This document shows, in pieces, positions 8,744-30,132 of a DNA stretch of 36,072 nt (within the stretch, counting starts at the first letter, position 1; each line of letters opens with the position of its first letter). This DNA is from Phenylobacterium sp. (lineage in GTDB: Bacteria; Pseudomonadota; Alphaproteobacteria; Caulobacterales; Caulobacteraceae). The position numbers and the translations under genes were made by a program. Below the pieces are notes generated by a model that was given only the letters and a program-made list of their open reading frames with translations, ran no database searches and was not told the origin of the DNA. Where the stretch lies: positions 1-36,072 of the forward strand of contig NZ_JAEUMO010000252.1 in NCBI RefSeq assembly GCF_016793285.1, in the 5' to 3' direction.

Positions 8744-9723
8744 TGGACAAGCCCATGACCACGCGCCGCACCTGCCTCGCCCTGACCGCCGCCTTCGCGG
8801 TGACCTACGCCCTGCCGGCCGCCGCGGCGGGCAAGCCGTCCGCCGAGGACCGCGCCTCCATCCTGGCGATGGCGGGCGACTACAAGGTCCGCTTCGACAT
8901 GCGCGAGACCGTCCCGTTCGTCGGCGACTACAAGCCGCTGGAGCCGAAGCGGAGCGGCGGCTACGAGTCGGTGCGGGGGATCGAGGACCGCGGCGACTTC
9001 ATCAGCCTGCAGCACATGCTGGTGGTCGACGGCGAGGACAAGAAGCCCGTCGTCGTGAAGCACTGGCGGCAGGACTGGACGTTCCAGCCGGCGAAGGTGG
9101 TGGTCTACGAGAGCGCCGGGCGCTGGGTGCTGAAGGCCGTGCCCGCCGCGCAGCGCAAGGGCGCCTGGTCGCAGACAGTCTGGCAGACGGACGACTCCCC
9201 GCGCTACGGCGGCGTCGGCAAGTGGGTCTACGACCATGGCGTGGCGCGCTGGCAGAGCGACGAGACGCTGCGGCCCCTGGCGCGCCGCGACGCGGTCCGC
9301 CATCCGATCTACACCTGGTACGTCGGCGTGAACCGCCATGCGCTGACGCCCACGGGCTGGGTCCACGAGCAGGACAACGCCAAGGTGGGCGAGCGCGACG
9401 GCAAGCCCGTCACCTACGTCCACGAGGTGGTGGTCAACACCTACGACAGGTTCAACGGCTATCCGGTGGCGGCGGCCGACGACTACTGGGCCAAGACCAA
9501 GGGCTACTGGGCCGACGTGCGCACGGCCTGGGACGCGGCGATCGCCCGGGACGGCGGCGTGCGCGTCACCGAGGAGGCGCAGGCCGGCTCGGTGACGGGC
9601 CCGAAGCTGATGGGCCTGGCCGACGAGATCGCCGAGGGGAAGATCGAGGTCGCCAAGGCCACGGCCGAAGCGAAGGCGCTGATCGCGGGCGCCGAGAAGG
9701 CCCGGCCGCTGGCGTCGCGGTAA
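8743..9723 (+). CDS. DUF6607 family secreted protein, partner of TonB receptor
   Basis: The product is 326 aa with an N-terminal signal peptide (TCLALTAAFAVTYALPAAAA). Its body is rich in aromatic and charged residues and contains YKVRFDMRETVPF, VVKHWRQDWTFQPAKVVVYE and HPIYTWYVGVNRHALTPTGWVHEQDN. I recognise this as the DUF6607 family, commonly encoded directly after haem-type TonB receptors; its biochemical role is unknown. The ATG at 8743 overlaps the receptor stop codon (8741-8743), which implies translational coupling and the same Fur control. A second in-frame ATG at 8755 is possible. The stop codon lies directly before repeat copy A. Confidence 0.82.
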   Translation: MDKPMTTRRTCLALTAAFAVTYALPAAAAGKPSAEDRASILAMAGDYKVRFDMRETVPFVGDYKPLEPKRSGGYESVRGIEDRGDFISLQHMLVVDGEDKKPVVVKHWRQDWTFQPAKVVVYESAGRWVLKAVPAAQRKGAWSQTVWQTDDSPRYGGVGKWVYDHGVARWQSDETLRPLARRDAVRHPIYTWYVGVNRHALTPTGWVHEQDNAKVGERDGKPVTYVHEVVVNTYDRFNGYPVAAADDYWAKTKGYWADVRTAWDAAIARDGGVRVTEEAQAGSVTGPKLMGLADEIAEGKIEVAKATAEAKALIAGAEKARPLASR

Positions 9724-9816
9724 GGCCTCTCCCCCGAGCGCCAAAGGCGCGAAGAGGGGGAGAGGGTAGGGAGAGGGCCGGCTGGGTGACTCCGTTGGAA
9801 CGTCGAGGACCCGCGA
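9724..9816 (+). repeat. GA-rich hairpin repeat, family 1 copy A (left flank of DUF559 gene)
   Basis: The outer part folds as a perfect 10-bp stem, CCTCTCCCCC paired with GGGGGAGAGG, around GAGCGCCAAAGGCGCG. It is followed by a linker (AGGGTAGGGAGAGGGCCGGC) and then CTCCGTTGG and GTCGAGG blocks up to about 9816. Copy B at 10,210-10,323 is its reverse complement; copies C (16,906) and D (17,027) are further members. The repeat starts at the stop of the DUF6607 gene and ends 1 bp before the stop of the DUF559 gene. Confidence 0.85.
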
Positions 9817-9817
9817 T

Positions 9818-10186
9818 CTATCGCCGCTCACCGCCGCAGGCGGCGAGAATGGTGTCGCATACGCCTTCGCGGTTCATCAGAACCGCGGAGTTCCAGAAGC
9901 GGAGGACTCGTAGGCCGCGGTCATTCAGGTACGCGGTGCGACGGGTATCATACGCGACCTGCTCGGCGTGCTGGCTTCCGTCGACCTCCACTACAAGCCG
10001 GGCGTCGCGGCACAGAAAGTCGAGAATGTAGGGCCCGAAAGGGACCTGCCGCTTCCAGTCCCAGCCCCCAAGCCTGTCAGCGCGGAGCATATTCCACAGC
10101 CGAGCTTCAGCATCAGTCTCTTCGCGCCGGTGCGTCTTCGCGCGATGAACGAGGATCTTGCGCCGGACGTTGCGGATAATGCCCAT
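9818..10186 (-). CDS. DUF559 endonuclease-domain protein (Vsr/PD-(D/E)xK-like)
   Basis: This 122-aa protein is a DUF559 member, a compact nuclease-like fold related to Vsr and other PD-(D/E)xK enzymes. The core is PFGPYILDFLCRDARLVVEVDG, with Asp56, Glu67 and Asp69 as likely metal ligands, followed by SQH and the RTAYLNDRGLRVLRFWNSAVL segment that ends this family. The N-terminus is basic (RNVRRKILVHRAKTHRREE), as expected for DNA binding. The ATG at 10,186 is preferred over the GTG at 10,192. By hand count its GC is about 62%, lower than the 70% or more of its neighbours, which suggests separate ancestry. It is enclosed by inverted repeat copies A and B and has no other gene partner. Its activity and target are unknown. 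Confidence 0.9.
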   Translation of the reverse strand: MGIIRNVRRKILVHRAKTHRREETDAEARLWNMLRADRLGGWDWKRQVPFGPYILDFLCRDARLVVEVDGSQHAEQVAYDTRRTAYLNDRGLRVLRFWNSAVLMNREGVCDTILAACGGERR

Positions 10187-10188
10187 CG

Positions 10189-10210
10189 GCACAATGTTCG
10201 CATAATGTTC
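10189..10210 (-). promoter_or_regulatory. Tandem 11-bp direct repeats before the DUF559 start
   Basis: Two abutting 11-mers, GCACAATGTTC (10,189-10,199) and GCATAATGTTC (10,200-10,210), differ at one base and are about one helical turn long. They lie immediately upstream of the DUF559 start codon on its coding strand (read there as GAACATTRTGC). CATTAT could also serve as a -10 element. Their position suggests a promoter or operator, but no regulator is known. Confidence 0.45.
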
Positions 10211-10323
10211 TCATGGCGGTCAAGGCCCGCGGGGCCTCGACAGGCCAACGGAGCAGCCCAGCCGGCCCTCTCCCTGCCCTCTCCCTCTCCGTTCGCTACG
10301 CTCCACGGGGGGAGAGGCGCCTG
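10210..10323 (-). repeat. GA-rich hairpin repeat, family 1 copy B (right flank of DUF559 gene)
   Basis: Read on the minus strand this copy aligns with copy A: GCCTCTCCCCC, a hairpin loop, GAGAGGGCAGGGAGAGGGCC, GGCTGGG, CTCCGTTGG and GTCGAGG-CCCGCG blocks in the same order and spacing. It therefore forms the inverted partner of copy A around the DUF559 gene. Its outer end encodes the last residues of the VanZ-like protein, so repeat and gene overlap. Confidence 0.85.
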
Positions 10324-16129: not shown

Positions 16130-16903
16130 ATGACGCGACGCATCGCCTTCGAGGGCATCGACAACTTCCGGGACTTCGGGGACTACGCCGCCGGTCCGCG
16201 GCGGCTGAAGGCCGGCCTGCTCTACCGCTCGGCCGGGCATGGCGGGGCGACCGACGCCGACCTCGAGAAGCTGGCGGCGATGAACCTGGCGGTGATCGTC
16301 GACCTGCGCCGCGCCAACGAGCGCGAGCGCCAGCCCAGCCGGCGCTGGCCGAGCTTCGACGCCCGGGTGATCGACAACGACATCGGCCAGGAAGCCGCCG
16401 ACGAGTGGCTGACCTTCATCCAGGGCTCGGACCTGACCGCCGCATCGTTCCACGCCTACATGATGGAGTACTACCGCAAGGCGCCGCTGCAGCAGCGGCA
16501 CCTCGACCTCTACACCCGCTACTTCCAGGCGCTGGCCGAGACCGAGGGCGCGATCCTGATCCACTGCGCCGCGGGCAAGGACCGCACCGGCATCGCGTGT
16601 GCGCTCACCCACCACATCACCGGCGTACACGACGACGACATCGTCGAGGACTACCTGCTGACCAACGACACGGCGCGGCTGGAGAAGCGCCTGCCGACGA
16701 TCCGCGAGGTCATCCGCGAGAGCACCGGCCGGGTCGCCTCCGACGACGCCCTGATGGTCGCGATGCGGGTCGAGCCCGAATACCTGGACGAGTCGTTCCG
16801 GGTGATGCGCGAGGCCTACGGCTCGCTCGACGGCTACCTGGACGAGGCGCTGGGCCTGAGCGCCGAGACGCGGGCGAAGATCCACGACCGCCTGCTGGCT
16901 TGA
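16130..16903 (+). CDS. Tyrosine-protein phosphatase (dual-specificity-like)
   Basis: This 257-aa protein has the protein tyrosine phosphatase signature HCAAGKDRTG (about residues 144-153), i.e. the C-x5-R loop with catalytic Cys and Arg. The N-terminal NFRDFGDYA and LYRSAGHGGATDADLEKL and the segment VIVDLRRANERE are typical of bacterial tyrosine/serine phosphatases of the Y_phosphatase3 type, some of which accept phosphoinositides. It is soluble with no signal peptide. It ends just before the inverted repeat pair. The physiological substrate is unknown. Confidence 0.9.
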   Translation: MTRRIAFEGIDNFRDFGDYAAGPRRLKAGLLYRSAGHGGATDADLEKLAAMNLAVIVDLRRANERERQPSRRWPSFDARVIDNDIGQEAADEWLTFIQGSDLTAASFHAYMMEYYRKAPLQQRHLDLYTRYFQALAETEGAILIHCAAGKDRTGIACALTHHITGVHDDDIVEDYLLTNDTARLEKRLPTIREVIRESTGRVASDDALMVAMRVEPEYLDESFRVMREAYGSLDGYLDEALGLSAETRAKIHDRLLA

Positions 16904-16905
16904 AC

Positions 16906-16999
16906 GCCTCTCCCGCGAGCGCGCAGCGCGACGAAGGGAGAGGGTAGGGTGAGGGCCGGCTGGGCGACTCCGTTCGCCTGTCGAGGTCCCGCAGGTCGC
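16906..16999 (+). repeat. GA-rich hairpin repeat, family 1 copy C
   Basis: This copy begins 2 bp after the phosphatase stop. CCTCTCCC and GGGAGAGG form the outer stem, then comes the linker AGGGTAGGGTGAGGGCCGGC, followed by TGGGCGACTCCGTT and GTCGAGGTCCCGCAGG, closely matching copy A. With copy D it forms an inverted pair lacking any gene between the arms. Confidence 0.85.
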
Positions 17000-17026
17000 C
17001 CGTGGCCCTCGCTCGGCCATCGGCGC

Positions 17027-17107
17027 AACACGCTCTCACGAGCCGGCCCTCACCCTGCCGTCTCCCTCCATCCCCGGCCTTCGCCGGGGTCGGGGGAGAG
17101 GAGGCGT
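17027..17107 (-). repeat. GA-rich hairpin repeat, family 1 copy D (inverted partner of C)
   Basis: On the minus strand it reads GCCTCCTCTCCCCCGACC, a CCCCGGC-GAAG-GCCGGGG hairpin, then GGCAGGGTGAGGGCCGGCTC, aligning to the linker of copies A-C. The 22-bp segment 17,072-17,093 is identical to 22,107-22,128. About 27 bp separate copies C and D. The rest of the gap to the MFS gene (17,108-17,186) shows nothing recognisable. Confidence 0.8.
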
Positions 17108-30025: not shown

Positions 30026-30132
30026 GCCGCCGCGGAGATCGGCGGCGGACGAGCGCCTCGCCAACCTGGTCAGGGCCGGAAGGCAGCAGCCACAACGAAT
30101 CACGCTTCGGGTTGTCGTTCGGTCTCCACCCG
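30026..30132 (+). ncRNA. ffs: Signal recognition particle RNA (4.5S type)
   Basis: The segment 30,066-30,095 carries the universal SRP domain IV core: CCTGGTCAGGGCCGGAAGGC and then AGCAGCC, including the GGAA tetraloop and both symmetric internal-loop sequences that bind Ffh. Flanking arms pair as expected: GACGAGCG (30,049-30,056) with CGCTTCGG (30,103-30,110), and GGAGATCG (30,034-30,041) with CGGTCTCC (30,120-30,127) allowing G-U. The ends are approximate. A GCTCC-TGC-GGAGC hairpin at 30,138-30,150 may aid termination. Its place about 3 kb from dnaX-ybaB-recR fits alphaproteobacterial gene order. Confidence 0.93.

Follow-up and report, generated by a model that had tools for sequence, protein, structure and literature searches.

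The question raised by this locus is why a small gene for a predicted nuclease of the DUF559 family should lie alone between two inverted copies of a hairpin repeat, and whether the gene and the repeats belong together. The window, i.e., the whole stretch of 36,072 nucleotides that was analysed, comes from a Phenylobacterium genome of 4.49 Mb in 271 contigs and carries the following features:

9724..9816, strand +: repeat A, with a hairpin CCTCTCCC..GGGAGAGG, a G-rich tail GTAGGGAGAGGG and an inner stretch CCGGCTGGGTGACTCCGTT..GTCGAGGACCCGC that extends as far as the DUF559 gene end
9818..10192, strand -: DUF559 gene with GTG start, coding for a predicted Vsr/EDxHD-like nuclease of 124 aa
about 10226..10323, strand -: repeat B, an inverted copy of A with the tail inward
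16903..17101, no strand: gene-less inverted pair of the same repeat (REPIN-like), with left arm 16903-16995 (+) and right arm about 17041-17101 (-)

Repeat A corresponds to match 9722-9814 in the genome-wide repeat search. An earlier note on this DNA had described A and B as inverted copies that enclose the DUF559 gene, and this was confirmed: A and the reverse complement of B showed 85% complementarity over 62 nt in an ungapped search, blastn aligned A and B at 84% over 69 bp, and the pair (locus L002) has an inverted local score of 41. The G-rich tails of both copies point inward, toward the gene. That the repeats meet the gene closely on both sides holds for A only. Its homology ends at about 9814-9816, beside the stop codon at 9818-9820 as had been claimed, while B starts about 34 bp upstream of the gene start and not at 10210, because its homology to A ends at about 10226-10228. 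The low G+C content ascribed to the gene (62%, against at least 70% in the neighbours) agrees with the measured 63.7% in the gene and 71.1% in the window. The DUF559 gene is alone between A and B; no DDE, Y1 or other transposase is found there, which distinguishes the element from classical IS and MITE elements. No family was matched in an Rfam scan of repeats from seven sources. Elsewhere in the window, at 30033-30131 (+), a Bacterial small SRP RNA (RF00169, 54.1 bits) was recognized.

Enclosure was scored as the best inverted local alignment between the 350-bp flanks of a gene and was called at a score of at least 18, a threshold chosen after the scores were seen; counts were also tabulated for 14 to 30. 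Inverted arms were present at 102 of 126 testable DUF559 domains and at 7 of 640 random 315-bp positions of the same loci. The set of 126 domains omits L007-L022 (duplicates and repeat-search loci) and three domains with short flanks, and the random positions were drawn once, before one duplicate locus (L060, the same as L023) left the domain set. By source, 5/6 domains were enclosed in the genome of the window, 24/29 in the loci from protein searches, 57/67 in the genus, and 16/24 in the phylum sample. When the real genes of the same loci were compared, enclosure was found for 57 of 69 DUF559 genes and 10 of 319 other ORFs. The comparison of DUF559 flanks with those of other genes, as proposed in the earlier note, was thus strongly positive in the genus and beyond, and the repeats are not equally frequent around unrelated genes. 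In a wider genus set, for which further matches were fetched from the 60 genomes, 110 of 132 testable genes were enclosed (102 of 120 with a near-complete domain), and 65 of 80 loci when those sharing flanks were counted once and decided by majority. The outer end was pyrimidine-rich in 84 of 94 upstream arms. Genes of the related nuclease family Vsr (PF03852) had enclosing inverted repeats at 0 of 30 loci. The enclosure is a general pairing and not a peculiarity of the window copy, and DUF559 and these REPs very probably form one unit.

Hairpins next to small genes could also be transcription terminators or mRNA stabilisers that such genes collect, in which case the pairing would be a matter of base composition and gene length. 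In line with this, the hairpins have a high G+C content, lie mostly between genes, and may end transcripts. Other small genes are nevertheless not equally enclosed (6 of 110 ORFs up to 600 bp scored at least 18 at the same loci), the arms measure at least 30 bp in 99 of 102 cases, and the arm type follows the protein, as described below; this explanation is very improbable.

Several loci with a score of at least 18 were found beyond Pseudomonadota: three Deinococcus plasmids (48.5, 32.5, and 20.5), one of three cyanobacterial plasmids (63.0), and a contig labelled as Candidatus Gottesmanbacteria (21.0). A contig labelled as Planctomycetota scored 16.0, below 18; MAG labels may be wrong. The plasmid loci belong to an additional set of 15 scored loci, namely 11 of 41 plasmid records, E. 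coli HMS174, and three of G181, with L153 and L155 left out, and 8 of the 15 reached at least 18. The seven without an enclosing pair were E. coli ycjD (twice), two Azospirillum loci, N. gonorrhoeae (16.0), and two cyanobacterial plasmid copies. E. coli ycjD and C. crescentus vsrA (CCNA_02930) share the DUF559 domain with the window gene; ycjD differs from the window gene in the missing pair, and similar G-rich hairpins were seen by eye 3' of ycjD. The two cyanobacterial plasmid genes not enclosed by repeats (L275 and L278) have DUF1156 genes next to them or nearby, which may be a different context for the DUF559 family. The genome of the window has a second DUF559 gene (G000:C231:11663-12208, L001), which is not enclosed; instead, a gene-less REP pair follows immediately on its 3' side.

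The window protein matched Pfam DUF559 (PF04480) with E 4.9e-37 and 126.6 bits, the curated cut-off being 20.6. The other Pfam match, MTES_1575 nuclease, was below cut-off, and no HUH tyrosine (Y1) transposase was matched. Residues E29, D58, E69, D71, H75, and D82 do not vary in either of two alignments, each made of 27 sequences with the window protein among them, and are candidate active-site residues. An AlphaFold2 model of the protein has a mean pLDDT of 85.7. Its best Foldseek match was 3HRL, a DUF559-like protein of Neisseria (E 3.9e-7; sequence match 2.6e-28), followed by the catalytic domain of the homing endonuclease I-Bth0305I (E 2.4e-4); weaker matches were to some mitoribosomal proteins of protists (from 8.8e-3) and to Vsr (2.2e-2 and 3.1e-2). 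The fold is therefore predicted, from the model, to be of the Vsr/I-Bth0305I (EDxHD) type. The window protein appears similar to these enzymes in the modelled catalytic fold and differs in being only 124 aa long with no added DNA-binding domain seen, in belonging to no intron or intein, and in being enclosed by hairpin repeats, which Vsr genes lack. The nearest named relative, at locus L023 (L060 of G031), has 69% identity. In the literature, YcjD is assigned to the PD-(D/E)XK superfamily, with a YcjD profile that detects Vsr (PMC1189080), and an intein-borne DUF559 gene is assigned to EDxHD homing endonucleases (PMC9403480). Legionella segments that carry a DUF559 gene together with a transposase are described as recombination hotspots (PMC12308824).

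The relationship between protein and repeat was analysed with five arm types, P1-P5, defined by regular expressions that were written after the arms were seen; the Mantel test reported below is independent of these types. When 58 genus proteins were clustered by identity alone, six groups were formed, in which 16/18 were P1, 16/16 P3, 9/9 P2, 9/9 P4, and 2/2 P1, and one group of four was mixed. Ten P4 genes lie at one locus and eight P3 genes at another, and so each locus was represented by a single gene in a second analysis. In this analysis, the nearest protein had the same arm type at 53 of 66 independent genus loci (permutation mean 16.2, maximum 33), and the unsupervised Mantel rho of 0.44 was reached in 0 of 2000 permutations. 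As some genes occupy one locus in many species, a part of the matching is due to common descent; the matching persists with one-per-locus sampling. Repeat-free orthologues at one such locus, a possibility raised in the earlier note, were not what was found: the genes at the two shared loci keep their repeats. The tetranucleotide GTAG (or CTAC) was present in an arm of 16/27 P1, 0/10 P2, 6/32 P3, 2/10 P4, and 4/21 P5 genes. It is not a conserved tag, and in P1 it represents the T variant of GGG(T/C)AGGG.

Fifteen repeat matches were found in the genome of the window: A and B, four gene-less inverted pairs, one pair 3' of the C231 DUF559 gene, and three singles. The five gene-less pairs have 44-53 bp between the matched segments and are dispersed inverted doublets, that is, REPIN-like; recurring pair spacings were observed in relatives also. 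In an alignment of six gene-less copies of this genome (five pairs and one single), the pairs share a heterodimeric spacer. The idea that the gene-less pairs are deletion products of the window element was not supported, as their inner tails differ while those of A and B are the same.

Patterns P1 and P2 each occurred in 32 of 60 genus genomes, and a reversed-pattern control in 0 of 60. With a genome counted as DUF559-bearing by a match of E <1e-10, P1 or P2 was present in 33 of 38 genomes with DUF559 vs 6 of 22 without (Fisher 8.5e-6), and in 26/31 vs 3/16 of the genomes at least 90% complete, both among the matches listed. Protein clades were cut to at least 90% purity for P1 and P2, so that their purity holds by construction. 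Among the genomes with a P1-clade gene, 17 of 21 had at least three P1 repeats, compared with 8 of the 39 that lack such a gene; for P2 repeats and the P2 clade, the corresponding figures are 10 of 11 and 17 of 49. Although significant, the link is not strict: repeats also occur in genomes without the clade gene. P2-rich genomes of this kind are G032, G054, and G049, with 99, 59, and 51 repeats, respectively. The main exception is G056, 90% complete, with 30 P1 and 34 P2 repeats, no DUF559 match among the matches listed, and one Y1 transposase match. Such exceptions may be relics that outlived the nuclease, may come from cross-action between the types, or may point to another mover. A link of the repeats to the ScmA motif YGCCGGCR was considered and dropped; 60 of 78 distinct P1 cores have no adjacent GCCGGC.

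If the REPs were moved by another enzyme, a RAYT/Y1 or other transposase, DUF559 would be carried along as cargo, or would simply stand by in intergenic regions rich in REPs. Matches to Y1 transposases (PF01797) were obtained in 11 of 60 genus genomes. Compatible with another mover are the six genomes without DUF559, among the matches listed, that hold at least one repeat copy, G056 with its Y1 match being one, and the fact that genomes with both enzymes hold repeats most often (8/9 with at least three, among the matches listed). Yet at least three repeats were also present, again among the matches listed, in 20 of the 29 genomes that match DUF559 but not Y1; the figures are 1 of 2 for genomes with Y1 only and 3 of 20 for those with neither enzyme. 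In the fetched flanks, P1/P2 repeats were present at 0 of 13 Y1 loci, and 7 of the 13 have inverted ends of another sequence. Several of these Y1 ends carry GGGGACA or GGTGACA and recall the motif GGGGWSAS reported for TIR-flanked tyrosine transposases (PMC3733652). Moreover, a match to the repeat type would not be expected of a bystander, and on a search that covered the Y1 family of transposases we regard a different mover as quite unlikely.

Sites without the element were sought in relatives, as the earlier note had suggested, and they exist. The gene upstream of the window element is present in 11 of 60 genus genomes, including that of the window. In G031 (neighbour protein 94% identical, same neighbours), both repeats are in place with no gene and with 78 bp between the cores; over 50 bp, part of this spacer matches an arm of L088, another DUF559 element of G031, at 82% identity. 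In G039 (neighbour protein 82%), neither repeat nor gene is present. Element L088 with its flanks, used as a query, matched 57 of 60 genus genomes, and the state of its intergenic site was read by eye in 20 of them. In 14, the site is 20-74 bp long with no recognisable repeat; two (G011 and G045) have a single or partial repeat, two (G012 and G050) a gene-less pair, and two (G031 and G041) the complete order repeat-DUF559-repeat. Coordinates place a P2 pair at this site in G054 too, a genome outside the 20.

The species-level comparisons of presence and absence gave no precise insertion junctions, the flanks being too diverged, and no target-site duplication was recognisable at the polymorphic sites, where the same divergence prevents excluding one. 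Clean empty sites with target duplications were looked for in four comparisons, G049 vs G054, S. meliloti Ak57 vs Sinorhizobium sp. C101, the Azospirillum plasmids, and E. coli ycjD, and presence/absence was the most that they gave, with no clean junction. In the Azospirillum plasmids, every full-length match carries the gene, and three E. coli strains without ycjD have other genes after sapF. What follows sapF differs among the four E. coli strains L156-L159 and is either ycjD, a gene of the SMI1/KNR4 family, or efflux genes. A 143-bp REPIN of G054 was considered as a clean insertion and rejected, as G049 has 20 other bases there.

DUF559 might also serve the host in DNA repair, as a VSP-type enzyme (the role proposed for VsrA) that acts on damage or mispairing at REP hairpins, so that REPs would be protected or tolerated and not spread. 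The C. crescentus DUF559 protein VsrA is described as required for the SOS response in cells without ScmA methylation (PMC12907096), the modelled fold resembles that of Vsr, and some DUF559 genes have stayed at a single locus across many species. On the other hand, the number of DUF559 matches per genus genome, 0 to 11 among the matches listed, and the distribution of 123 genes over 82 loci in the genus look mobile. An inverted pair is also needless around a repair gene, and Vsr genes do not have it. A repair role of this kind is unlikely.

We consider it rather probable that the locus is a REP-nuclease module, in which DUF559 acts on its cognate REPs and repair copies REP pairs, an analogue of RAYT with an unrelated nuclease. 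The observations behind this reading are the enclosure, its breadth, the matching of protein and repeat, gene-less pairs mostly in genomes with DUF559, sites with and without the gene, and the predicted fold; the enclosure in the genus and beyond also supports the RAYT-like module built on a nuclease that the earlier note had suggested. In such a module, the DUF559 nuclease would recognise the hairpin repeat of its own type and would cut or nick in or beside REP pairs. On repair of the cut, REP pairs would be copied, either alone or together with the nuclease gene, to other intergenic sites or to sites already holding a REP, and the gene-less pairs (REPINs) would be non-autonomous members served in trans. 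Binding, cutting, and copying of REPs by DUF559 are inferred parts of the proposal and differ in strength. That the nuclease acts on the repeats is quite probable, while that it drives their spread is a possibility at somewhat less than even weight; this role we infer, because no precise insertion junction or target duplication was found. A still wider proposal, to be taken as tentative, is that a Vsr/homing-fold DUF559 drives G-rich REPINs by cutting and repair, homing-like within a genome, as a second, independent REP-mobilising system.

The element resembles the RAYT (TnpA-REP)/REPIN system in having one small DNA-processing gene flanked by inverted REPs, in its dispersed gene-less inverted pairs, and in the co-variation of enzyme and repeat type, as described for RAYTs (PMC3116915, PMC8266576). 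It differs in the enzyme, a predicted Vsr/EDxHD-type nuclease and not a HUH tyrosine enzyme, and in the repeats, which are G-rich CTCTCC/GGGTGAGGG-like hairpins with no conserved GTAG tag. Since both the HUH enzyme and the conserved tag are absent, the element is RAYT/REPIN-like but not a member of that group. Palindromic repeats are also shared with the CGTC-tagged REPs and with RIME of S. meliloti; the former are said in PMC3733652 to have no dedicated transposase and are an example of REP families for which no enzyme is known.

In the literature searched, VsrA was the only DUF559 member found with in vivo data, and no link between DUF559 and REPs was found; novelty is provisional, because most subscription papers and bioRxiv preprints lay outside the search. 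The results suggest that DUF559 is a so far unrecognised partner of scattered REP repeats. DUF559 is a widespread domain with an unsettled role, to which the REP link gives a testable function, and a class of intergenic hairpins gains a candidate driver. A REP system of this kind would rest on an enzyme that has no relation to RAYTs, and the link offers another angle on VsrA-dependent DNA damage in Caulobacter.

Some REPs carry other sequences within or next to them. In G049 (L164:14104 and L167:9798), a palindromic insert of about 70 bp (GTCGAGAGCGGCG..CGCTCTCGAC) lies inside P2 REPs, and the copy of G054 at L164 is without it; the insert is a further small repeat nested in REPs. At L167:9740-10220, compared with L174, G054 has only the palindrome family CATCCCGGCGAAGGCCGGGACCC, perhaps CGTC-type, and G049 has the same palindromes with P2 REPs on both sides. 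In S. meliloti Ak57, REP hairpins are interrupted twice by ISRm16 of the IS4 family (L187:4992-6407 and L188:24770-26160).
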